59,361 bases of DNA from Bacteroidales bacterium (GTDB lineage Bacteria; Bacteroidota; Bacteroidia; Bacteroidales; VadinHA17). Below are positions 765-10,178 of the stretch, piece by piece (positions within the stretch are counted from its first letter, which is position 1; each line of letters opens with the position of its first letter). The stretch spans positions 1 to 59,361 of the forward strand of contig JANTGF010000014.1 in the NCBI GenBank assembly GCA_024763075.1, written 5' to 3'. The position numbers and the translations under genes are program-made. The notes beneath the pieces were generated by a model. That model was not told the origin of the DNA, ran no database searches, and saw nothing but the letters and a program-made list of their open reading frames with translations.

Positions 765-1820
765 TTATTTTTTAAATTTTATAGTAATAAGAACCGGCTG
801 ATGATCAGAGTTTTCAAAATCAAGATTTATTGTTTTTACACTCCGTGGTATAACATTGGGTGAACATAGAAAAAAATCGAGTATGGTTGTTGCTGTCTTC
901 CCCGGTTTGTAGTAAGTTGTCAAAGACCGGTTAGAAGGGTAAGAAATGTCAAAATTCCAGCTCCATCCTTCAGGTAAGAAATCCGAAGAAATATCTTCCA
1001 GGGTAAAATTTTCATAACCCGAGTTACTTTTAAAAGTTGCCGGATCAAAGCCGGGAGGGTTCTGGTTCCAGTCGCCACCAACAATAATATAGTTCCCCTT
1101 TGAATATTCACTCAAAATGAACTTTTTAAGAAACTGCATTTCATGTTTCTTTAGTGTTCCGCCATCAAAAGCGGAATTGTGGGTGTTCAGGACCAGAAGT
1201 TCCTTTTTATTGGATAAAGGGATTCGTGAAGCCATAAAGCACCGGTCGAGCATAAATAAATTTTTTGGCCACGGATATTTCCCAGGGAAATCATAACGCA
1301 CAACCCGGGAAGGTTTAAGTTTACTAATGGTCACAAGCCCTGAAAGCACTCTTCCAATAGGCTCGGATGGGGGTATAGGAAGGAAAAACACTTTAAAATT
1401 CGGGGCAAAATAGTAATTGGGATAACCTACTATGCCACTTATTTCCGACACTTCATTAATGTGGTAAGTTCTTTTTGATTTTACATCTACCTCCTGGAGT
1501 AACATCATATCTACTGTATCGTTGGTAACCAGAACCTTGCTGATAGCACTCAGATTTTTATTTGTATTTTCCTTTGAATCCCTGACTTTTTTACCACCGT
1601 CATAAAAGAAATCCATTTCTTTGCCCAAACCACAATAACCGATATTCCATGTTAATATACATAAACTGTCATCAACAGAAAAGATATCCGGGTTTGCAGG
1701 CTCATCAATTACAATACGTTCATCGGGCTTGTAGTCAGCGATGGTTGAGAATAGTAAAAACAATCCAAACAAAACAATCAGGCTGAGAAGAAGATAAAGA
1801 AAATATCGTAATACTTTCAT
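765..1820 (-). CDS. endonuclease/exonuclease/phosphatase (EEP) family hydrolase, membrane-anchored
   Basis: The 351-residue product has one N-terminal hydrophobic segment (about residues 5-27) and then an EEP fold of the DNase I/exonuclease III/sphingomyelinase superfamily. Catalytic landmarks are visible: LTWNIG with N59, LLQEVD with E110, LNTHN with H214, GGDWNQNP with D250 and N252, and a closing SDHQPV with D339-H340. These are the metal and phosphodiester-cleaving residues of the superfamily. The substrate (nucleic acid, phospholipid or inositol phosphate) cannot be told. The N-terminal anchor places the catalytic domain outside the cytoplasm, which argues against a housekeeping DNA-repair enzyme. 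In many relatives an EEP gene follows mutL-rhomboid-rhomboid; here it lies about 50 kb away, next to purQ and divergent from it. Confidence 0.88.
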   Translation of the reverse strand: MKVLRYFLYLLLSLIVLFGLFLLFSTIADYKPDERIVIDEPANPDIFSVDDSLCILTWNIGYCGLGKEMDFFYDGGKKVRDSKENTNKNLSAISKVLVTNDTVDMMLLQEVDVKSKRTYHINEVSEISGIVGYPNYYFAPNFKVFFLPIPPSEPIGRVLSGLVTISKLKPSRVVRYDFPGKYPWPKNLFMLDRCFMASRIPLSNKKELLVLNTHNSAFDGGTLKKHEMQFLKKFILSEYSKGNYIIVGGDWNQNPPGFDPATFKSNSGYENFTLEDISSDFLPEGWSWNFDISYPSNRSLTTYYKPGKTATTILDFFLCSPNVIPRSVKTINLDFENSDHQPVLITIKFKK

Positions 1821-1909
1821 GAGTAGTAGTTTTGGTTTCTAAAAATGATTAAAGTTAATAAAAAAAGTAAATTCCATATTCGAAAATTGCCATCAAAGTG
1901 AATTATATC

Positions 1910-1917
1910 TATATTTG
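1910..1917 (+). promoter_or_regulatory. -7 promoter element for purQ
   Basis: TATATTTG matches the Bacteroidota sigma-ABfr -7 consensus TAnnTTTG and lies 15 bases before the purQ ATG, so transcription would start only a few bases before the start codon. No convincing -33 TTTG is seen. Confidence 0.45.
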
Positions 1918-1931
1918 AAGAAAAAAATAAA

Positions 1932-2645
1932 ATGAAATTTGGTGTAGTCGTATTCCCGGGTTCTAATTGTGATCATGATACTGTATATACCCTTCGTGAA
2001 ATACTGGATCAGGAAGTTGTTGAGTTATGGCATAAAGATACTGACCTTCAGGATGTAGATATGATTATTTTGCCCGGGGGGTTCTCATACGGAGACTATT
2101 TGAGATCAGGGGCAATTGCCAGGTATTCTCCAATTATGGGGAAGGTTATTGAGTTTGCTGAAAGAGGGGGCTATGTGTTGGGAATTTGTAATGGTTTTCA
2201 GATTTTATGTGAGGCTGGTTTACTTCCCGGAGCTCTTTTGCATAACCAAAATCAAAAATTTATTTGTAAAAATATTTATATCTTACCGGATAATAATGAA
2301 GCCCCGGTTAACAGGCTACTGGATAAAGAAAAACCTCTAAAGATACCTATTGCTCACGGAGAGGGTCGATACTTTGCGTCTCCGGAAACTCTTTCCATGA
2401 TGCGTCAGAATAATCAGATTTTGTTTCGCTATTGTAATGATTCAGGTGAAATTTCAGAACAATATAACCCGAATGGATCTGTTGAGAATATTGCAGGTGT
2501 TTGTAATGAAACAAAAAATGTTTTTGGAATGATGCCTCATCCTGAAAGAGCTGCCGACGATGAACTGGGAAATACTGATGGGCGTCTGATATTGGAATCA
2601 CTGATTAAGATAATACTGGAAAAGAAGATAAGTTATTATAATTAG
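1932..2645 (+). CDS. purQ: phosphoribosylformylglycinamidine synthase glutaminase subunit (PurQ)
   Basis: PurQ supplies ammonia from glutamine to PurL for the fourth step of de novo purine synthesis (FGAR to FGAM). The 237-residue protein starts with the family signature VVVFPGSNCDHDT and has a class I glutamine amidotransferase triad: nucleophile C86 in GICNGFQ, with H203 and E205 in MMPHPERA. The length fits stand-alone PurQ (about 225-240) rather than the large fused PurL. No purL or purS is in the window, so the partner lies elsewhere. The gene has its own -7 box at 1910-1917 and is divergent from the EEP gene. Confidence 0.96.
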   Translation: MKFGVVVFPGSNCDHDTVYTLREILDQEVVELWHKDTDLQDVDMIILPGGFSYGDYLRSGAIARYSPIMGKVIEFAERGGYVLGICNGFQILCEAGLLPGALLHNQNQKFICKNIYILPDNNEAPVNRLLDKEKPLKIPIAHGEGRYFASPETLSMMRQNNQILFRYCNDSGEISEQYNPNGSVENIAGVCNETKNVFGMMPHPERAADDELGNTDGRLILESLIKIILEKKISYYN

Positions 2646-2704
2646 TTGAGATTTTACCTGATTTATATTCCGTTATTTGCAAACCCGGATATAGCTGGAT
2701 TCTT

Positions 2705-4783
2705 ATGATTTTGCCTGATAAGTTGCAAAGGCTTCAATCCTTTGTGGTTTTTACCATTTTACTGATTTTATTATCTGGTTTTAAAATTCTTAATGCACAG
2801 GGTGGACGAACAATTGATGTTTTACAATACACTCTCAATGTGAATATTCTGGATTTTAAGTCGCAGGAAATATCCGGAATTACTGATCTGCAAATTCGGG
2901 CTTTGACCGACCGTGTTTCAGAAATACAGCTTGATTTACTTGCTCTGAAAGCCGATTCTGTATGGGTTGATGATGAAAGGATTACTGATTTTACGCAAGT
3001 GGGTGAAAAACTGATTATCCCTTTATTTGAACCAATGGAAAAAGATGGTACAGTGCTCATCAGTGTTTTTTATCATGGGAAGCCGGCAAAAGATCCTTCC
3101 TGGGGCGGTTTTTATTTCAAAGACAATTATGCATTCAATATGGGAGTTGGGATGAAGTCTGATCCACCCGGTTTTGGTCGAGCCTGGTATCCCTGTGTGG
3201 ATAGTTTTACGGACAGAGCCGGTTATGATTATTTTATTACTGTTTCCGGGAATAATACGGCAGTTTGCCCCGGCATATTGAAAGAGGTGATTGAAAATGC
3301 TGATGGTACACATACTTTTCACTGGCAACTTCTTAATGGCATCCCAACGTATTTGTCTTCTGTTGCGGTTTCGGATTATGTTTGTTTGAGTGACACTTTC
3401 CATGGCTTGCAACGTGATATTCCTGTAATGATATTTGTGGCTCCAGAAGATAGTTTAAATGCTGCCGGTTCTTTTCGTGACCTGCCAAAATGGATGGAAT
3501 GTTTTGAGGATATGTACGGGCCCTATCAATGGGAAAAGATTGGTTTTGTTTCAACTCCGTTTTCAGGAGGTGCAATGGAACATGCTACTGCAATAAGTTT
3601 TTCAAGATCTACATTGATGGATACTACTGGTTTTAAAGGAATTCTGGTCCATGAATTATCTCATAGCTGGTTCGGGAACCTGGTAACCTGTGAAACTCCG
3701 GATGATATGTGGCTGAATGAAGGTTGGGCCAGCTATTCTGTGCCATTGTATCTTGAATGGGCAAAAGGTGAGAAGGAATACAGGGATTATATGATGAGAA
3801 ATCACTGGAATGTTCTCAGATTTGCACATATTCGTGATGATGGTTACCGTTCGGTTTATGGGAATGCACCTGACCATACCTACGGTAGTACGGTATATAA
3901 CAAAGGAGCAGATGTGGCATATAACCTTCGGAATTATATTGGAGACGATTACTTCCTTCCGGCTCTGAAAAAGTATTTTAAAACCTATGCTTTTAAAAAT
4001 ATAAATACTGTTGAATTTAAAGAATTCTTTAGTTTGCAAACCGAAGCAGATCTTGATCATTTCTTTGATTTTTGGGTTTACGGTAAGGGTTTTCCTCATT
4101 TTTCTGTAGATTCCCTAAATGTAAATAAGCAAGGAGATAACTGGCAGGTGAAGGTTTATTCAAGTCAAAAACTTCTGGGAACAGATCAGTATAGTAATTA
4201 TAATCAGCTGGAGATATTATTTCTTGGCAGGAACTGGGTTGAAAGAAAAGAAATTATGCAAATGTCAGGACCTGCGGACAGTGCGGTTTTCTCATTGGAT
4301 TTTAATCCGGAAACGATAATTATCGATCCTGATAATAAGATACTTGGTGCAACTACCGGTGAATTAATTGTTCTAAGAGAAACGGGTGAACAGAATATAA
4401 GGAATGCTTATTTTTCCCTGAATGTTAAACGTGTTAAGGATTCAGCTTTGTTTAAAATCACCCGTGACTGGGTAAGCGCCGACACTGTGGGTTCGGAATT
4501 TGAGATTGACCCGGTAGGTTATTGGACAGTCTCTGGATATAATCTTACAAAACAGGATATGGAAGGGAAGTTTGTTTATGAAAATCTGAAATTTGTGCCT
4601 GATAAATTTATTCAGACAATTAAAGAAAGGGATGAAATGAATACCCTGGTTTTATTTTACCGGGCTGGTGCAGGTGAGGAATGGAAAATGATTGATGCAA
4701 AATCAGATCACAATGAAAATGGTGGTAGCTTTACGACTTCATTTATAAAATCCGGGGAATACTGCATTGGCCTGAACAGGTAG
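2705..4783 (+). CDS. secreted M1-family zinc aminopeptidase
   Basis: A 692-residue M1 metallopeptidase. A hydrophobic segment (about residues 12-31) looks like a signal peptide ending near LNAQG, so the enzyme is exported. The exopeptidase substrate loop GGAME (about 288-292) and zinc site HELSH (H316, H320) with downstream glutamate E339 in NEGWASY are all present. The N-terminal beta domain is about residues 35-240, the thermolysin-like domain about 240-460, and a beta-rich C-terminal tail follows. The shorter C-terminal part (no long HEAT-like domain) is typical of Bacteroidota periplasmic M1 enzymes that trim peptides. The gene starts 59 bases after purQ, but nothing shows a functional link. 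Confidence 0.93.
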   Translation: MILPDKLQRLQSFVVFTILLILLSGFKILNAQGGRTIDVLQYTLNVNILDFKSQEISGITDLQIRALTDRVSEIQLDLLALKADSVWVDDERITDFTQVGEKLIIPLFEPMEKDGTVLISVFYHGKPAKDPSWGGFYFKDNYAFNMGVGMKSDPPGFGRAWYPCVDSFTDRAGYDYFITVSGNNTAVCPGILKEVIENADGTHTFHWQLLNGIPTYLSSVAVSDYVCLSDTFHGLQRDIPVMIFVAPEDSLNAAGSFRDLPKWMECFEDMYGPYQWEKIGFVSTPFSGGAMEHATAISFSRSTLMDTTGFKGILVHELSHSWFGNLVTCETPDDMWLNEGWASYSVPLYLEWAKGEKEYRDYMMRNHWNVLRFAHIRDDGYRSVYGNAPDHTYGSTVYNKGADVAYNLRNYIGDDYFLPALKKYFKTYAFKNINTVEFKEFFSLQTEADLDHFFDFWVYGKGFPHFSVDSLNVNKQGDNWQVKVYSSQKLLGTDQYSNYNQLEILFLGRNWVERKEIMQMSGPADSAVFSLDFNPETIIIDPDNKILGATTGELIVLRETGEQNIRNAYFSLNVKRVKDSALFKITRDWVSADTVGSEFEIDPVGYWTVSGYNLTKQDMEGKFVYENLKFVPDKFIQTIKERDEMNTLVLFYRAGAGEEWKMIDAKSDHNENGGSFTTSFIKSGEYCIGLNR

Positions 4784-4802
4784 GAAAACTTTAAACTGTG
4801 AT

Positions 4803-5057
4803 CTAATAACTTAAAGGATAGAAACCTGACATTAATCTTTCAGCATCTTCAAACGATGATACAAAATAAAACGAATCAGTATTAAAAGGATCGAATATTA
4901 ATCTGCTTGAAATTCGGATATTTATGTGCTGTTGTTCACTGTTTTCAGCACAAATCAGAATGGAATTTGTGACAAGACCAATTCTTCTTTCCACATCGTA
5001 TCCTTTGATTGTTAGTCCTGCCTCCAAATATGATGCTATTTCATAAATGTTAGCCAT
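4803..5057 (-). CDS. small protein of unknown function (84 aa)
   Basis: I do not recognise the family. The frame is open for 84 codons, begins MANIYEIASYLEAGL and ends SGFYPLSY, with balanced composition, no signal peptide and no membrane segment. It fills the space between the M1 peptidase stop and the tRNA-Ala repeat region and is convergent with the peptidase gene (19-base gap). Amino-acid use (alternating polar and hydrophobic, few Cys and Trp) looks like a real small folded protein rather than an antisense shadow, but there is no motif to confirm it. Confidence 0.55.
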   Translation of the reverse strand: MANIYEIASYLEAGLTIKGYDVERRIGLVTNSILICAENSEQQHINIRISSRLIFDPFNTDSFYFVSSFEDAERLMSGFYPLSY

Positions 5058-5108
5058 ACTTATTATACGGGAAATAAGTAAATTTTGTTGTATAAACGGT
5101 TGATTTGA

Positions 5109-5249
5109 ATGAACATCCCTTTTGTGGAGAATAGCGGAGTCGAATGCCGGGAATTATAAGCTATGCTTGTTAAATTCCCGAGCATCCTCGAAAAATGAAT
5201 CAAATTAGCAATTTGATATTTTTCGGGACCGCAGACCTTTTGACTGCCA
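5109..5249 (-). pseudogene. degenerate second copy of the tRNA-Ala 3' half, interrupted by a palindromic insertion
   Basis: Bases 5109-5144 are identical over 36 nt to 5588-5623, which is the 3' end of the intact tRNA-Ala plus the left arm and loop of its terminator. Bases 5229-5249 match 5624-5644 (20 of 21), which is the anticodon-loop to T-stem part of the same tRNA. Between them sits an 84-base block (5145-5228) absent from the intact tRNA. The copy therefore runs from the anticodon loop to the terminator loop, and has no 5' half and no right terminator arm. It cannot encode a tRNA. It resembles the displaced half-site left when an element integrates into a tRNA gene. Confidence 0.8.
5145..5228. 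repeat. 84-bp double-hairpin palindromic insertion inside the tRNA remnant
   Basis: The block holds two strong inverted repeats. Hairpin 1: GGGAATT at 5149-5155 pairs with AATTCCC at 5173-5179, with an inner AAGC/GCTT (5158-5161, 5165-5168). Hairpin 2: CGAAAAAT at 5189-5196 pairs with ATTTTTCG at 5218-5225, and inner ATCAAATT (5199-5206) pairs with AATTTGAT (5210-5217) around an AGC loop, giving 16 pairs with only a 2-nt bulge. It is inserted exactly between the 5' T-stem strand and the T loop of the duplicated tRNA. Its ends are not clear terminal inverted repeats and I see no target duplication. No other copy was seen in this window. Confidence 0.75.
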
Positions 5250-5304
5250 ATGTTCCCTGATATTGGAATTGAAGAAAGGAGCATGAGAAAAGCTGTACTA
5301 TTTA

Positions 5305-5568
5305 TCAGATCATTATGAAACTATTCTTATGAACATACTCAAAGACAACTTTTCTTGATTTCATGTTTTTCAATTTACGCTCAGCTGCCATAGCTTCACT
5401 ACGTGAGCTGAACTCTTTGTAAGCAAATAATTTCCAGGGTTTAAAAGGCTTGGTGTATTTTGACCTTCCGTTGTTATGGTCAGAAATACGTTTATTCAGA
5501 TCTTGTGTCTGTCCGATATAAAGCTTATCGTAGTTAACACTTTGAATGATGTAAACAAAATAGATCAT
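5305..5568 (-). CDS. GIY-YIG nuclease-family protein (87 aa), flanked by tRNA-Ala sequence
   Basis: Starting at the ATG at 5568 the product begins MIYFVYIIQS, followed by KLYIGQT, the two halves of the GIY-YIG signature, then a basic RISDHNNGRSKYT region and a conserved glutamate in EAMAAERKLK. This is the stand-alone UvrC-N-like/GIY-YIG domain with nothing attached. The start lies three bases after the T run of the tRNA-Ala terminator, so there is no room for a promoter or ribosome site of its own; an in-frame ATG at 5595 (MFICIPFFI leader) falls inside the terminator hairpin. Expression would need read-through from the tRNA. Direct repeats of the tRNA 3' end lie on both sides, which suggests a homing-type or selfish element; whether the enzyme cuts tRNA genes is inference. 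Confidence 0.85.
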   Translation of the reverse strand: MIYFVYIIQSVNYDKLYIGQTQDLNKRISDHNNGRSKYTKPFKPWKLFAYKEFSSRSEAMAAERKLKNMKSRKVVFEYVHKNSFIMI

Positions 5569-5571
5569 AAT

Positions 5572-5602
5572 AAAAAAAGGGATGCATATGAACATCCCTT
5601 TT
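5572..5602 (-). terminator. Rho-independent terminator of tRNA-Ala
   Basis: On the minus strand AAAAGGGATG (5602-5593) pairs with CATCCCTTTT around an 8-nt loop, followed by a run of seven T (5578-5572). It starts two bases after the tRNA discriminator base. The GIY-YIG ATG lies directly beyond the T run. Confidence 0.75.
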
Positions 5603-5603
5603 G

Positions 5604-5677
5604 TGGAGAATAGCGGAGTCGAACCGCTGACCTTTTGACTGCCAGTCAAACGCTCTAGCCAACTGAGCTAATCCCCC
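5604..5677 (-). tRNA. tRNA-Ala (anticodon GGC)
   Basis: The 74-nt cloverleaf folds fully. The acceptor stem GGGGGAT/ATTCTCC contains G3-U70, the alanine identity pair; the D arm is TAGCTCAGTTGG; the anticodon stem TTTGA/TCAAA holds the loop CTGGCAG with anticodon GGC; the T arm is GCGGTTCGACTCCGC; the discriminator is A. No CCA is encoded. A -7-like box TATTTTTG lies at 5756-5763 on the minus strand. Part of its 3' half is repeated at 5109-5249. Confidence 0.96.
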
Positions 5678-5755
5678 ATAAAAATAAGAACAGAATTATA
5701 AATTTAAAATTCTTTCCAATTCATTTATTAAATAATATCTTTGAACCTGCGTGGA

Positions 5756-5763
5756 CAAAAATA
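5756..5763 (-). promoter_or_regulatory. possible -7 element for tRNA-Ala
   Basis: On the minus strand TATTTTTG fits TAnnTTTG. It lies about 80 bases before the tRNA 5' end, which would leave a leader that must be processed. A plus-strand TATCTTTG at 5736-5743 overlaps the same region and could instead serve the tonB-like gene. Confidence 0.3.
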
Positions 5764-5954
5764 GTAAATTTTTAACATACCTGAAATATTATTTTTTCGC
5801 ATCAATTATTTGGTTAAAAACTTTGGTGTGATTTTTGTGGTATTTCATTTGAGAGGTATTTATTAAGTTTTTTGGTATTTCTGCGAAACATTTTTAAAAA
5901 TGTTTTGATTATATATTAAGAAATCAGTATTTTTAGCCACTAAAATTTTAAAAA

Positions 5955-6638
5955 ATGGAACTTAAGAAGTCAGAAAAAGCAAATCTGGAAAAAAGAAAAG
6001 CAGTTTTTTTCCAGCTGGGACTGGTTATTGCACTGTCACTTTCGTTAATTGCCTTTGAATGGACATCAGGTGGTTTGGGTTCGAATGAGTACGCCACCGG
6101 AGACCAGGAACAGGTTGAAGAGGAAATGATACCTATAACCCGTCAGAAACCACCGGAACCACCAAAACCGGTGGAGCCACCAAAAGTTACCGAAATGTTG
6201 AATATTGTTGATGATGACGTTCAACTGGATGATGAATTGCAGCTGGATGACTTTGAAGTGGATCAGGAAACAGAAGTGGAAATTAAAGAATACGAAGAGG
6301 AAGAAGAAGCCGATGACGCTGAAATCTTTTTTATCGTTGAAGATATGCCGAGTTTCCAGGGCAAAGGACAGGATGGTTTTCGTACTTATATTGCCAATAA
6401 CCTGAAATATCCTGAGATTGCTGCAGAAAATGGTATCAGCGGGAAAGTTTTTGTTAGGTTTGTAGTTGAGCCGGATGGTAGTGTTACTCACGTTGAAGTT
6501 ATTCGTGGAGTGGATCCTGCCCTTGATGCTGAAGCCGTCAGGGTTGTGAAATCCTCCCCAAAATGGGCTCCTGGTAAGCAAAGGGGTAAGCCTGTAAGGG
6601 TTTCTTTTACATTCCCGATAAGTTTTGTTTTACAATAA
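5955..6638 (+). CDS. TonB-family energy transducer
   Basis: A 227-residue TonB-like protein. A short basic N-terminus is followed by one membrane helix (about residues 18-38), then a proline-rich linker (QKPPEPPKPVEPPK, about 63-77), a strongly acidic stretch (about 85-118), and a C-terminal TonB domain (about 135-227) with the typical YPEIAAENGISGKVFVRFVV pattern and a closing FTFPISFVLQ. TonB proteins pass inner-membrane proton-motive energy from ExbB/ExbD to outer-membrane receptors. No exbB, exbD or SusC-type receptor is nearby, so the receptor it serves cannot be named. A perfect 20-base palindrome lies upstream at 5886-5905. Confidence 0.92.
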   Translation: MELKKSEKANLEKRKAVFFQLGLVIALSLSLIAFEWTSGGLGSNEYATGDQEQVEEEMIPITRQKPPEPPKPVEPPKVTEMLNIVDDDVQLDDELQLDDFEVDQETEVEIKEYEEEEEADDAEIFFIVEDMPSFQGKGQDGFRTYIANNLKYPEIAAENGISGKVFVRFVVEPDGSVTHVEVIRGVDPALDAEAVRVVKSSPKWAPGKQRGKPVRVSFTFPISFVLQ

Positions 6639-6667
6639 ATAATTTATCAATATTTTAAAAACTCCGG

Positions 6668-6685
6668 AAACCCCGGGGTTTTTTT
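6668..6685 (+). terminator. likely terminator after the tonB-like gene
   Basis: AAACC pairs with GGTTT around a CCGG loop and runs into seven T (6679-6685), 30 bases after the stop codon. The stem is short, so this is moderate evidence. Confidence 0.45.
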
Positions 6686-6756
6686 ATGCCTGTAAGTAAC
6701 TTTCCTAAGGGCATTTCGTAATTTCTTTTAAATAAGTAGTAATAAATTTAATTTAA

Positions 6757-7926
6757 ATGAAAAAGTTATTATACCTGAGTATCCTTGCACTTCTCACAGT
6801 GGGCTGTGGTTCCTCCAAGAAACAATTGCAAAACGGTAATTACGATAGTGCCATTCAGAAATCTGTAAAAAAATTATTAAAACACCCTGATAGCGAAAAG
6901 GACATTGAGGTTCTTTCAAAATCCTTCCGCCTTGCCAATGAACAGGATAATGAAAGAATACGGTTTCTTAAACTGGAAGGCAAACCTGAAAACTGGGAAG
7001 AAATTGCGCAAATTTATAACCGGCTTAAACGCCGGCAACAAATGATACAACCTGTGATGCCCCTGGAACTGAGAGGAGAGGAAATTAAATTCGATTATGT
7101 GGATTACAATCGTGAGCTGGTGGAATCGCGGCATAAAGCCGCAGAATTCTTTTATACTCATGGGCAGAAACTTATGAGCAATAATACAAAAGAGTCATAC
7201 AGACAGGCTTATTATGAGTTTTCTAGGGTAAAGGAATATTGGGGAGATTATGAGAATATAGATGAATTGCTTTTAAGATCACGTGAACTTGGAGTGAGCA
7301 GGGCTTTGGTTACGGTAGATAATAAATCAAAATTCAGGTTGTCAGAGGATTTTAAAAATAGTTTACTGGCAATTAATCCACAGGAACTGGACTCTGAATG
7401 GGTTGAATATTACACAAAAGACCTGGATGATAATGTTGAATTCGACTATCATCTTGTCATTATGATAAATATTATTGATGTTAGCCCTGACCAGGTTAAA
7501 GAAACGGACCGGATAGAAAAGAAAAAAGTAGATGATGGTTTTGAATATGTTCTGGATAGTAATGGAAATGTGAAAAAAGATTCCCTGGGGAATGATATTA
7601 AAGTTAAAAAATATAAGAATCTTACATGTACCGTGATTGAAACGGCACAGTCAAAATCTGCTCATATTGAGGGAAATCTGGAGATATATCAAATGAGACC
7701 TTTGAAATTATTGAGAAAGGAACCACTCGGAGCCGATAGCCATTTTTCACATCTTTCTGCCAGAGCGATAGGAGATACGGAAGCACTTTCTGAAGAATCA
7801 TTAAATCTGATAGAAGTTAAACCTTTGCCATTCCCGAATGATGATGAAATGATTATGCTGTGCAGCCAGGGTATGAAGCAGGCAATCAGAGGTGTTTTAC
7901 AGAGAAACAAACGATATTTGTATTAA
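6757..7926 (+). CDS. lipoprotein of unknown function (389 aa)
   Basis: The N-terminus MKKLLYLSILALLTVGC is a lipoprotein signal with the lipobox cysteine at residue 17. The mature protein starts with a repeat-like helical part (NGNYDSAIQKSVKKLLKHP) reminiscent of TPR-type helices, and continues with a mixed region in which the residues near 250-280 are very lysine-rich. I recognise no catalytic motif. It belongs with conserved Bacteroidota lipoproteins annotated only as hypothetical. It follows the tonB-like gene by 118 bases with a likely terminator between, so co-transcription is doubtful. Confidence 0.82.
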   Translation: MKKLLYLSILALLTVGCGSSKKQLQNGNYDSAIQKSVKKLLKHPDSEKDIEVLSKSFRLANEQDNERIRFLKLEGKPENWEEIAQIYNRLKRRQQMIQPVMPLELRGEEIKFDYVDYNRELVESRHKAAEFFYTHGQKLMSNNTKESYRQAYYEFSRVKEYWGDYENIDELLLRSRELGVSRALVTVDNKSKFRLSEDFKNSLLAINPQELDSEWVEYYTKDLDDNVEFDYHLVIMINIIDVSPDQVKETDRIEKKKVDDGFEYVLDSNGNVKKDSLGNDIKVKKYKNLTCTVIETAQSKSAHIEGNLEIYQMRPLKLLRKEPLGADSHFSHLSARAIGDTEALSEESLNLIEVKPLPFPNDDEMIMLCSQGMKQAIRGVLQRNKRYLY

Positions 7927-7966
7927 GAAAATTTATAGATATTTCTATCTTCTAAGTTTGGATTGT

Positions 7967-7974
7967 TATCTTTG
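7967..7974 (+). promoter_or_regulatory. -7 promoter element for hflX
   Basis: TATCTTTG matches the TAnnTTTG -7 consensus, 27 bases before the hflX ATG. Confidence 0.45.
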
Positions 7975-8000
7975 AAAAAAACCTGGGTATTCAATGAAGA

Positions 8001-9197
8001 ATGATAGATAAACCGGTAAATAATGAATTGAATTTACCCAAAGCTGTGCTTGTGGGTTTAACCACAGGTGACAGAGATAGGCACGAAGTAATGGAATATC
8101 TGGAGGAGCTGGCTTTTCTTGCCGAAACTGCCGGGGCTGAGCCTGTAAAAATTTTCACCCAATCTCTGGATTTACCCAATTCAAAATATTTCGTTGGCAC
8201 CGGAAAGTTGAAAGAAATAGAAGAGTTTATAAAGGAAGAGGGAATAAAACTGGCCATCTTTGACGATGAACTTACATCAAGTCAGCTACGGAATATTGAA
8301 AAGCGACTGGACTGCCGTGTGCTGGACAGAACGAATCTGATTCTGGATATTTTTGCAAGCCGGGCAAAAACGGCACACGCTATGGTGCAGGTTGAACTGG
8401 CTCAGTATCAGTATTTACTCCCCCGGTTAACAAGGATGTGGACGCACCTTGAACGTCAGAGAGGGGGGATTGGTCTCAGGGGGCCCGGTGAAACAGAAAT
8501 AGAAACGGACCGCAGGATAATCCGGGATAAAATCGCTAAATTAAAAACTCAGCTTGTAAAAATAGATAAGCAAAAGGCTACACAGAGAAAAAACCGTGGA
8601 AAAATGGTACGGGTGGCATTGGTAGGTTATACAAATGTTGGTAAATCTACTATCATGAACCTATTAAGTAAATCAGATATTTTTGCAGAAAACAAATTAT
8701 TTGCAACCCTTGACACTACTGTTCGGAAAGTAGTAATTAACAATCTCCCATTTTTATTATCTGATACAGTGGGATTTATAAGAAAGTTGCCACATCATCT
8801 CGTAGAGTCGTTTAAATCAACCCTGGATGAAGTCCGGGAAGCTGATATACTTATCCATGTTGCTGATATTTCACATTCCGGATTTGAAGAACAAATCACC
8901 GTTGTTAGAAATACACTTAAAGAATTGGGTGCTGCAACCAAGCCGACCTATCTTGTTTTTAATAAAACAGATGCCTACAGTTTTATTGAAAAAGATGATG
9001 ATGACCTAACTCCTAAAACACGTGAGAATTTAAGTATGGAGGAATTGATGAACAGCTGGATGGCAAGAGATCATAACCCTTCCATTTTTATTTCTGCAAA
9101 AGAAAAGTTAAATATCTCTGAGTTTAAGGAGAAAATTTATTCAATGGTTAAGGAGATTCATGTAAAAAGATATCCTTACAACGATTTTCTATATTAA
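8001..9197 (+). CDS. hflX: GTPase HflX, ribosome-associated
   Basis: A 398-residue HflX-type GTPase that splits or rescues 50S/70S ribosomes under stress. The N-terminal HflX domain (about 15-190) includes the signature RGPGETEIETDRR near residue 165, followed by a coiled-coil linker. The G domain has the P-loop GYTNVGKS (209-216), DTVGF (switch II/G3) and NKTD (G4). The length fits the family. The last nine bases overlap the convergent asd gene (9189-9197). Confidence 0.96.
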   Translation: MIDKPVNNELNLPKAVLVGLTTGDRDRHEVMEYLEELAFLAETAGAEPVKIFTQSLDLPNSKYFVGTGKLKEIEEFIKEEGIKLAIFDDELTSSQLRNIEKRLDCRVLDRTNLILDIFASRAKTAHAMVQVELAQYQYLLPRLTRMWTHLERQRGGIGLRGPGETEIETDRRIIRDKIAKLKTQLVKIDKQKATQRKNRGKMVRVALVGYTNVGKSTIMNLLSKSDIFAENKLFATLDTTVRKVVINNLPFLLSDTVGFIRKLPHHLVESFKSTLDEVREADILIHVADISHSGFEEQITVVRNTLKELGAATKPTYLVFNKTDAYSFIEKDDDDLTPKTRENLSMEELMNSWMARDHNPSIFISAKEKLNISEFKEKIYSMVKEIHVKRYPYNDFLY

Positions 9198-10178
9198 TTT
9201 CCTGCTGATTAACTTTTCTGCTATCTGAATGGCATTTGTAGCAGCTCCTTTGCGGAGGTTGTCAGATACAATCCACAAATTTAAGCAGTTCTCTCTGGAC
9301 TCATCCAAACGGATTCTGCCAACGAAAACATCATCTTTCCCTTTTGAGTTAATTGGCATCGGGTATTCATTCCGGGATGGGTTGTCAACGATAGTAATAC
9401 CGGGAGCCTCTTTTAAAATGGAAAGGATCTCTGATAACTGAAAAGTTTTGTCGAATTCCAGGTTCACTGACTCAGAATGGCCACCTGTAACTGGGACCCT
9501 GACAGTTGTAGCTGTAACCTTAACTGTTGGATCAGCAAGAATTTTATGAGTTTCATTCACCATTTTCATTTCTTCCTTTGTATAACCGTTCTGTTCGAAA
9601 ACATCAATGTGCGGAAGACAATTCATATCTATTTTATGGGGGTAGAAGCGGGGTTCATCCTTTCCCAGCCTTTCTGCTTCCAATTGCTTAACTGCATGAA
9701 TCCCTGAGCCGGTAACAGATTGATAAGTAGATACTACAATACGGTTAATACGGTATTTCCAATGCAGAGGTGCAATGGCCATCAGCATTTGAATGGTTGA
9801 GCAATTCGGATTCGCAATTATTTTATCCTCCTTTGTGAGAATATCTCCGTTTATCTCCGGGATGATGAGTTTTTTTAACGGATCCATTCTCCAGGCTGAG
9901 GAGTTATCGATTACCACAGTTCCAAGTTTGGCAAACTCAGGCGCTACCTGGAGAGAAAGGCCAGATCCGGCTGAAAAAAGAGCAATGTCAGGTTTGAAAT
10001 CCAATGCATTGGAAACAGATTGAACCGTGAGTTCATTCCCTTTGAAAATAATTTTCTTATTTACAGATCTATCACTGGCAACCGGCATGAAATCAGTAAC
10101 CGGGAAATTCCTTTCTTCCAGTACCCGGATCATCGTTTTTCCTACAATCCCTGTGGCACCTACAACAACAACTTTCAT
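9189..10178 (-). CDS. asd: aspartate-semialdehyde dehydrogenase
   Basis: Asd reduces aspartyl phosphate to aspartate semialdehyde, the branch point for lysine/diaminopimelate, threonine and methionine. The 329-residue enzyme has the NADP-binding start VVVGATGIVGKTM, nucleophile C126 in NPNCSTIQM, and the conserved H234 in VTGGHSE. The length matches the Gram-negative class of about 330-340. Diaminopimelate use agrees with dapD and mpl elsewhere in this window. A minus-strand -7 box at 10292-10299 is a possible promoter. The 3' end overlaps hflX by 9 bases, tail to tail. Confidence 0.96.
   Translation of the reverse strand: MKVVVVGATGIVGKTMIRVLEERNFPVTDFMPVASDRSVNKKIIFKGNELTVQSVSNALDFKPDIALFSAGSGLSLQVAPEFAKLGTVVIDNSSAWRMDPLKKLIIPEINGDILTKEDKIIANPNCSTIQMLMAIAPLHWKYRINRIVVSTYQSVTGSGIHAVKQLEAERLGKDEPRFYPHKIDMNCLPHIDVFEQNGYTKEEMKMVNETHKILADPTVKVTATTVRVPVTGGHSESVNLEFDKTFQLSEILSILKEAPGITIVDNPSRNEYPMPINSKGKDDVFVGRIRLDESRENCLNLWIVSDNLRKGAATNAIQIAEKLISRKLI

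Follow-up and report, generated by a model that had tools for sequence, protein, structure and literature searches.

The tRNA-Ala(GGC) locus and its GIY-YIG nuclease

The window (the whole 59,361-nt stretch of Bacteroidales DNA analyzed here) contains an intact tRNA-Ala(GGC) gene on the minus strand (positions 5603 to 5677; predicted by ARAGORN and scoring 65.9 bits against Rfam model RF00005). On the same strand, it is followed by a terminator-like hairpin (5575 to 5602), the single hairpin found there by the terminator scan, then by an ORF encoding an 87-amino-acid, single-domain GIY-YIG nuclease (5305 to 5568; Pfam GIY-YIG, 2.2e-19), and finally by a displaced 3' half of the tRNA-Ala gene (5109 to 5249). 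The displaced copy extends from the anticodon loop into the terminator loop and thus comprises the tRNA 3' half and the first part of the terminator. Repeat search and split alignment resolved it into two blocks: positions 5109 to 5144 are a direct repeat of 5588 to 5623 (36/36 identical; spacing, 479), and positions 5228 to 5249 repeat 5623 to 5644 (21/22 identical, 95%). By a rough estimate, ~5e-15 exact 36-mer pairs are expected by chance in 1.8 kb, and the split alignment scored 68, compared to a null maximum of 32. The layout, the 36/36 block, and the end of the copy in the terminator loop are as the earlier note on this sequence had described them. Its description did not include the 83-bp double-hairpin palindromic insert (5145 to 5227, minus strand; CCCGAAAAA...CGAGGATGCTCG...) that separates the two blocks in the T-arm of the displaced half. 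The insert folds at -29.2 kcal/mol (RNA parameters), and related sequences are dispersed across the genome.

The GIY-YIG start codon lies directly 3' of the terminator T-run, so expression from upstream would need read-through. The eight neighboring ORFs scanned (765 to 10178) matched Exo_endo_phos, GATase_5, peptidase M1, TonB_C, GTPase, or semialdehyde dehydrogenase models or had no match, and no integrase was found among them, as the same note had claimed.

The nuclease retains the catalytic residues Y6, Y17, G19, R27, H31, and E63, and in an alignment of 26 family proteins Y6, Y17, R27, H31, and E63 are invariant, as is characteristic of the GIY-YIG superfamily. An AlphaFold2 model of the 87-residue protein is one compact domain (pLDDT, 95.9); no added DNA-binding domain, such as the separate binding region of homing endonucleases, is seen in this predicted model. 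The NCBIfam model for group I intron endonucleases was matched by 11 of the 26 proteins, and the window protein scored 21.1 bits against a cutoff of 56.05. Among solved structures, the UPF0213 protein BH0048 (1zg2) and Slx1 are the closest to the window nuclease in both sequence and fold, and I-TevI and UvrC are weaker matches; the solved Slx1 chains are longer than 87 residues (about 250 to 320, with one of 183). These comparisons are compatible with a specificity that may reside either in sequence or in hairpin structure.

Linkage of the nuclease family to intact and broken tRNA genes

All five family matches in the genome that harbors the window (G000) are at tRNA loci. Three tandem GIY-YIG genes precede tRNA-Ser(CGA), each of them preceded in turn by a tRNA-Ser 5' part with a ~38-bp palindrome in the D-loop, and one GIY-YIG gene lies behind tRNA-Asn, with a broken, palindrome-bearing 5' part upstream. 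A search of 60 genomes (G000 and 59 members of its family and order) gave 81 matches in 37 genomes. Forty-three of the 81 were located at most 300 bp from a tRNA, and all 46 matches with any tRNA in the locus were on the same strand as that tRNA. Ranked by similarity from best to weakest, the matches within 300 bp numbered 16/21, 18/20, 7/20, and 2/20, so the linkage is a property of this subfamily and not of GIY-YIG genes in general. Relatives in which the gene lies far from any tRNA, which had been named as an observation contrary to a tRNA-targeting element, are thus not the usual case; it is the weakly similar GIY-YIG matches that are mostly placed in this way.

The linkage extends across the phylum. 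A profile of the 26 proteins had matches at E <= 1e-6 in 193 of 296 genomes, with a maximum of 19 per genome and none in the other 103. The best 29 loci, from 29 genomes (each GIY-YIG gene taken as 223 bases; own locus L187 excluded), contained a tRNA in 27 cases, within 200 bp in 24, and on the same strand in 27 of 27. A separate scan with a single-protein query returned 64 loci, and after exclusion of the query's own locus (L337), 43 of 63 had a tRNA within 300 bp (32/41 in Bacteroidota and 11/22 in other phyla), always on the same strand (43/43). The loci outside Bacteroidota include Desulfobacteraceae, Neomarinimicrobiota, Cloacimonadota, Dehalococcoidia, Elusimicrobiota, and several candidate phyla, all of them records from metagenome bins in which misplaced contigs are possible. 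In the sets of 81 matches, 29 loci, and 63 loci, the tRNA counts take in ARAGORN predictions without an assigned type, and a few of these are broken copies. The numbers give strong support to a recurrent tRNA-coupled nuclease cassette, one of the two possibilities raised in the earlier note. In one relative (locus L034, G037), two GIY-YIG genes lie within an array of tandem tRNA-Val-like genes, four of them spaced 106 to 107 bp apart and several left unassigned by ARAGORN.

Two mirror-image layouts recur. In the form seen in the window, the order is intact tRNA, terminator, GIY-YIG gene, and then the displaced 3' half that belonged to the old tRNA; in the other form, a displaced 5' half, together with its upstream region, comes first, and the GIY-YIG gene and the intact tRNA come after it in that order. 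In two pooled sets, a partial tRNA copy was found near 89 of 109 GIY-linked tRNAs, and 20 had no copy at the threshold. The first set (relatives and profile matches) had a copy with a score of at least 28 in 55 of 66 cases, with null percentiles (n = 198) of 25 (95th) and 35 (99th) on either side of this threshold. It drew on 27 of the 29 phylum loci, with the two that have no tRNA omitted together with genes whose nearest assigned tRNA was more than 260 bp away. The second set (named records, L337 excluded) had a copy in 34 of 43, including 9 of 11 outside Bacteroidota, and here the threshold of 28 is just under the 95th percentile of the null (n = 172; 95th, 29; 99th, 33). Both nulls consist of the flanks of other isotypes, which themselves hold real broken copies. 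In 71 of the 109 cases, the partial copy lies beyond the GIY-YIG gene, so that the gene stands between an intact and a broken tRNA.

The copies follow a rule of sides. Pooling of copies with a score of at least 32, G000 included, gave 125 copies (51 5' copies, 54 3' copies, 14 near-full copies, and 6 internal copies); 45 of the 51 5' copies were upstream of the tRNA and 52 of the 54 3' copies downstream. The 5' copies ended between the 3' side of the D-stem and the anticodon loop in 37 of 51 cases, and the 3' copies started most commonly in the variable loop (24/54), followed by the anticodon loop (9/54). Some loci recur in the pooled sets (L037/L347 and L349/L350, and three G000 tRNAs counted twice among the 125), and the pooled counts are therefore slightly inflated. 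The near-equal numbers of 5' and 3' copies bear on whether such loci are scars of ordinary integrase-dependent elements (islands or phages) whose other genes were lost. We give practically no credence to that origin: the balance of 51 to 54 argues against it, as do the lack of an integrase among the eight window neighbors and the recurrence of an identical tiny unit in tandem arrays (see below).

Partial copies also occur without the nuclease. In G000, an alignment allowing long inserts detected them at scores of at least 28 beside 17 of 36 tRNA genes and at scores of at least 32 beside 16 of 36. In the null (216 comparisons of tRNAs with flanks of other isotypes or with block-shuffled flanks), the 99th percentile was 28 and the maximum 32, and 14 of the 36 tRNAs scored above every null value. 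Two neighboring tRNA-Leu genes share one partial copy, leaving 16 distinct copies, and for tRNA-Phe, where the alignment crossed the masked tRNA, the first part alone was counted. Only 3 of the 17 tRNAs have an adjacent GIY-YIG gene. A duplication present without the gene, which the earlier note had weighed against its proposal, is thus found in part: in the 14 remaining cases in G000 and in one relative (L110; without TonB synteny), where a palindrome-bearing 3' copy of tRNA-Ala is present and no GIY-YIG gene.

Two comparisons between genomes, both using tRNAs from the loci ranked highest by the search, gave different results. In the first, 16 of 49 tRNAs from five GIY-rich genomes scored at least 28 and 13 of 49 at least 33, compared to 0 of 41 in five genomes lacking the gene (null 95th percentile, 31; 99th, 38). 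In the second, a copy was found at 1 of 63 tRNAs in ten further GIY-bearing genomes and at 3 of 62 in ten GIY-lacking ones. We therefore do not claim a genome-wide dependence of broken copies on the nuclease, since GIY presence is no predictor of broken copies at tRNAs sampled regardless of the gene. The second comparison favors plain decay, in which a tRNA is duplicated in tandem, one copy dies and gathers dispersed palindromes, and GIY-YIG genes are passengers in the spacer; this is also in line with the GIY-less majority of G000 copies and with palindromes away from tRNAs (6 or 7 of the 17 sites described below). We nevertheless consider it an unlikely account, because decay predicts neither the position of the gene between intact and broken copies (71/109), nor the consistent sides and breakpoints, nor nuclease lineages specific to an isotype.

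Such lineages were seen in a tree of 88 nucleases. Separate usable proteins were available for 93 of the 109 GIY-linked tRNAs, and five near-identical ones were dropped; the 88 loci span tRNAs for 16 amino acids. The tree required 36 isotype changes, compared to 64.8 +/- 2.3 after shuffling (minimum, 58), and 47 host-family changes, compared to 59.8 +/- 1.1 (minimum, 56), and when each combination of host family and isotype was kept as a single row, there were 32 isotype changes compared to 44.3 +/- 1.7 (minimum, 39). The nucleases thus follow the tRNA more closely than the host. The tree is weak, with few columns, 11 of 85 inner branches starred, and frequent isotype switches. Lineages specific to one target gene, as expected of homing genes, are indicated by these isotype counts on a poorly resolved topology, so that vertical inheritance combined with loss can account for some of the signal.

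The gene is patchily distributed at the window locus itself. The tRNA-Ala loci of 29 relatives were checked, and 18 of these have TonB near tRNA-Ala(GGC). One of the 18 is occupied (G005): its locus L113 has a GIY-YIG gene together with a 5' copy bearing a palindrome, and a 3' copy is seen as well at its locus L026. The other 17 have neither the gene nor a copy scoring above 24, and 16 of them are informative, as one contig (L099) ends 65 bp behind the tRNA. In L106, both flanks are kept (M1 peptidase, 39% identity; TonB, 66% identity) and the element is absent. The only genome of the same genus (G001) did not match the tRNA-Ala query and was unusable as an empty site, and the comparison of occupied with empty loci is one between species and genera. 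Occupied and empty alleles of one locus, a property of homing genes, therefore exist between species (1 compared to 17, of which 16 are informative).

This patchiness also bears on a host function, by which the protein would be a regulator coupled to the tRNA or an enzyme of defence or repair belonging to the tRNA transcription unit, with tRNA fragments accumulating as nuclease action destabilizes the locus. The strict same-strand coupling is as such a role would have it, and the closest structures are UPF0213 and Slx1, the latter a DNA-processing enzyme. We regard a host function as rather unlikely, however, given that 1 of 18 syntenic relatives is occupied, that the gene itself occurs in tandem arrays and beside tRNAs for 16 amino acids, and that genomes range from 19 matches to none at E <= 1e-6 (103/296).

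Palindromic inserts and tandem arrays

Inserts of 10 to 125 nt were seen in the copies at 45 of the 109 GIY-linked tRNAs and in none at the other 64. Among the 74 inserts counted, the D-loop holds 25, the T-loop 18, and the 5' side of the T-stem 13, and 41 of 53 unique D- and T-arm inserts fold at z scores below -2 compared to mononucleotide shuffles. Their sequences are diverse between loci (TCCC..GGGA, CCTG..CAGG, and CCCG..CGGG). A scan of G000 with a palindrome core gave 21 matches, compared to 1 for the reversed control. Of 17 sites counted, ten are at tRNA loci (binomial P, ~5e-19) and six elsewhere; the remaining one (L141), read by eye, is one broken half of a tRNA at the end of a contig.

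Six G000 loci without a GIY-YIG match (L127, L134, L135, L136, L138, and L139; tRNA-Pro, -Gly, -Arg, -Met, -Asp, and -Met, respectively) have a partial 5' copy upstream with a TCCCG..CGGGA-like double palindrome of 83 to 89 bp in the D-arm, and these copies often include the upstream region. In some broken copies at L040, L042, and L404, a TCCCG..CGGGA hairpin replaces the anticodon arm, giving tRNA-like sequences without an anticodon. In a genome with no GIY match at E <= 1e-6 (L302, G249), the broken 3' copies of a tRNA-Val pair carry a T-arm insert that is GC rich and palindrome-like.

The preference for loops raises the possibility that the palindromes are the mobile element and that the GIY-YIG nuclease moves them into tRNA hairpin loops, in the manner of REPs, which RAYT transposases are thought to move. 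The insert positions and folding, the ten tRNA loci among the 17 sites of one palindrome family, and the palindromes beside Y1 transposase genes, which differ from these by eye, are on the side of this explanation, which we nonetheless judge highly improbable: the sequences vary widely between loci and are present at sites without the gene, the GIY-lacking genome with the L302 insert included, and we know of no GIY-YIG transposase.

The nuclease gene and its tRNA piece are amplified together. At L401 (tRNA-Asp), five tandem 315-bp units match one another at 99%, each composed of a palindrome-bearing T-arm (TCCCGACTAGTCGGGA), the 3' end of the tRNA, a terminator, and the GIY-YIG gene. Read by eye, the GIY-YIG frame of this array (744 to 2327) continues into the T-arm of the broken tRNA and stops at a TAG within the palindrome, and the C terminus of the protein is thus encoded by tRNA sequence. 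Two or three units each were found at L402 and L403 (both tRNA-Ser), L404 (tRNA-Pro), L405 (tRNA-Ser), L406 (tRNA-Arg), L407 (tRNA-Ser; one unit cut), and L408 (tRNA-Leu). These arrays cover both mirror forms, and in that of L404 the palindrome stands where the anticodon arm would be. The assemblies of G353, G191, G295, and G247 are single contigs, so their arrays are not contig-end artifacts. With tandem units of about 305 to 370 bp and loci without the gene, the earlier proposal of a self-spreading unit of about 480 bp gains partial support, as regards a small discrete unit with occupied and empty sites, and the movement itself is what we infer.

Proposed mechanism and relation to known systems

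The explanation that we consider probable is that the window holds one copy of a family of minimal, tRNA-restoring, homing-type selfish elements, each consisting of little beyond a one-domain GIY-YIG gene and the tRNA piece that restores the invaded tRNA. It draws on direct observations, namely, the layout and its recurrence, the same-strand orientation, breakpoints lying mostly around the anticodon arm and variable loop, the palindrome positions, the amplification, the empty loci, and the isotype lineages; from these we infer cleavage and movement by the element. The nuclease would cut uninvaded copies of its cognate tRNA gene, and repair would copy the cassette into the cut gene, as in intronless homing, with the restored tRNA keeping the host alive. 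Repair between repeats could then multiply the unit, a process published for SegB, a phage nuclease. Expression of the GIY-YIG gene probably starts at the tRNA promoter, and this would account for the strict same-strand rule. In the least certain step, the palindrome may be a dispersed repeat that was captured and that either erases the half-site left behind or prevents loop-out between the repeats. Weighing against the homing reading are the GIY-less copies of G000, the second genome comparison, and the GIY-linked tRNAs with no copy (20/109) or no insert (64/109); in addition, the restored tRNA should still contain much of the presumed target, and the predicted protein has no added DNA-binding domain and most closely resembles UPF0213 and Slx1 rather than I-TevI.

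More tentatively, and with a slight inclination against it, we raise a new class of mobile element of ~300 to 480 bp, with one single-domain GIY-YIG nuclease and largely one tRNA isotype per lineage, which would insert near the anticodon arm and restore the tRNA from either side. The D-, anticodon, or T-arm of the displaced half would be marked by palindromic hairpins that play a part in the mechanism, either as the hairpin substrate of an Slx1-like nuclease or by erasing the target, and the class, found in Bacteroidota and several other phyla, would rank with the smallest autonomous selfish elements.

If the homing-type reading is true, a one-gene selfish element survives in essential genes by regenerating them, and its targets, tRNAs for 16 amino acids, offer a natural series in which to follow how a minimal nuclease becomes specific. 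The same reading would account for many of the broken tRNA copies and small GIY-YIG genes of Bacteroidota genomes, and it opens to testing the question of whether amplification driven by a nuclease, as shown for SegB in phages, reshapes bacterial tRNA loci too.

SegB, as described in the available part of the account, is a free-standing GIY-YIG homing endonuclease of T-even phages that lies beside phage tRNA genes and drives segmental amplification via double-strand breaks and recombination, and its homologues colocalize with tRNAs in phages (PMC13096335). The element shares with it the GIY-YIG gene beside tRNAs of many isotypes and the tandem amplification of a tRNA-nuclease segment, as far as that part describes them (PMC13096335). 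SegB is phage borne, whereas the element is one short domain on bacterial chromosomes, and the same part of the account describes no tRNA-half duplication or palindrome (PMC13096335). Searches of phage and plasmid sequences yielded 5 phage and 4 plasmid records, all with identities under 60%, and IMG/VR had no relative of the two queries in a search reaching close relatives only; a phage or plasmid origin is rejected on these results.

Group I introns with homing endonucleases occur in tRNA anticodon regions, according to the part of the source available (PMC3984707). As in the element, a nuclease gene parasitizes a tRNA gene near the anticodon, but introns restore the tRNA by splicing and the element does so by a second tRNA copy. 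At the five loci compared with 4227 Rfam families, tRNA models alone matched, and a group I intron is rejected there. An endonuclease specific for tRNA-fMet has reportedly been found among group I intron nucleases. Integrative elements that target tRNAs (tyrosine recombinase islands and phages) likewise restore the tRNA and leave a displaced part; the element differs in having a single gene, no integrase near the window copy, and displaced 5' parts as well.

The arrangement is real and general and, as far as our literature search goes, undescribed: we found no account of tRNA-linked GIY-YIG genes with tRNA-half duplication in bacterial chromosomes, in a search that left subscription papers mostly uncovered and is weak evidence. 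We file the element with free-standing, tRNA-parasitic, homing-type elements, for which homing would be the mode of spread.

Dispersed palindromes are common to REP/RAYT systems and the element, but here they are inserted in the loops of tRNA halves, the associated gene is a GIY-YIG gene, and the palindromes next to Y1 transposase genes differ in appearance when read by eye. G000 has four Y1_Tnp genes (L148 to L151), and, read by eye, the sequences beside them are unlike the tRNA-associated palindromes and do not support a Y1 transposase as the owner of the latter. A repeat search at three of the four found one palindrome, unrelated to those at tRNAs. Palindromes of another kind flank these genes, e.g., CACCGTGCTAAAGTACGGTG beside L150, and suggest that G000 also contains a separate REP/RAYT-like system.
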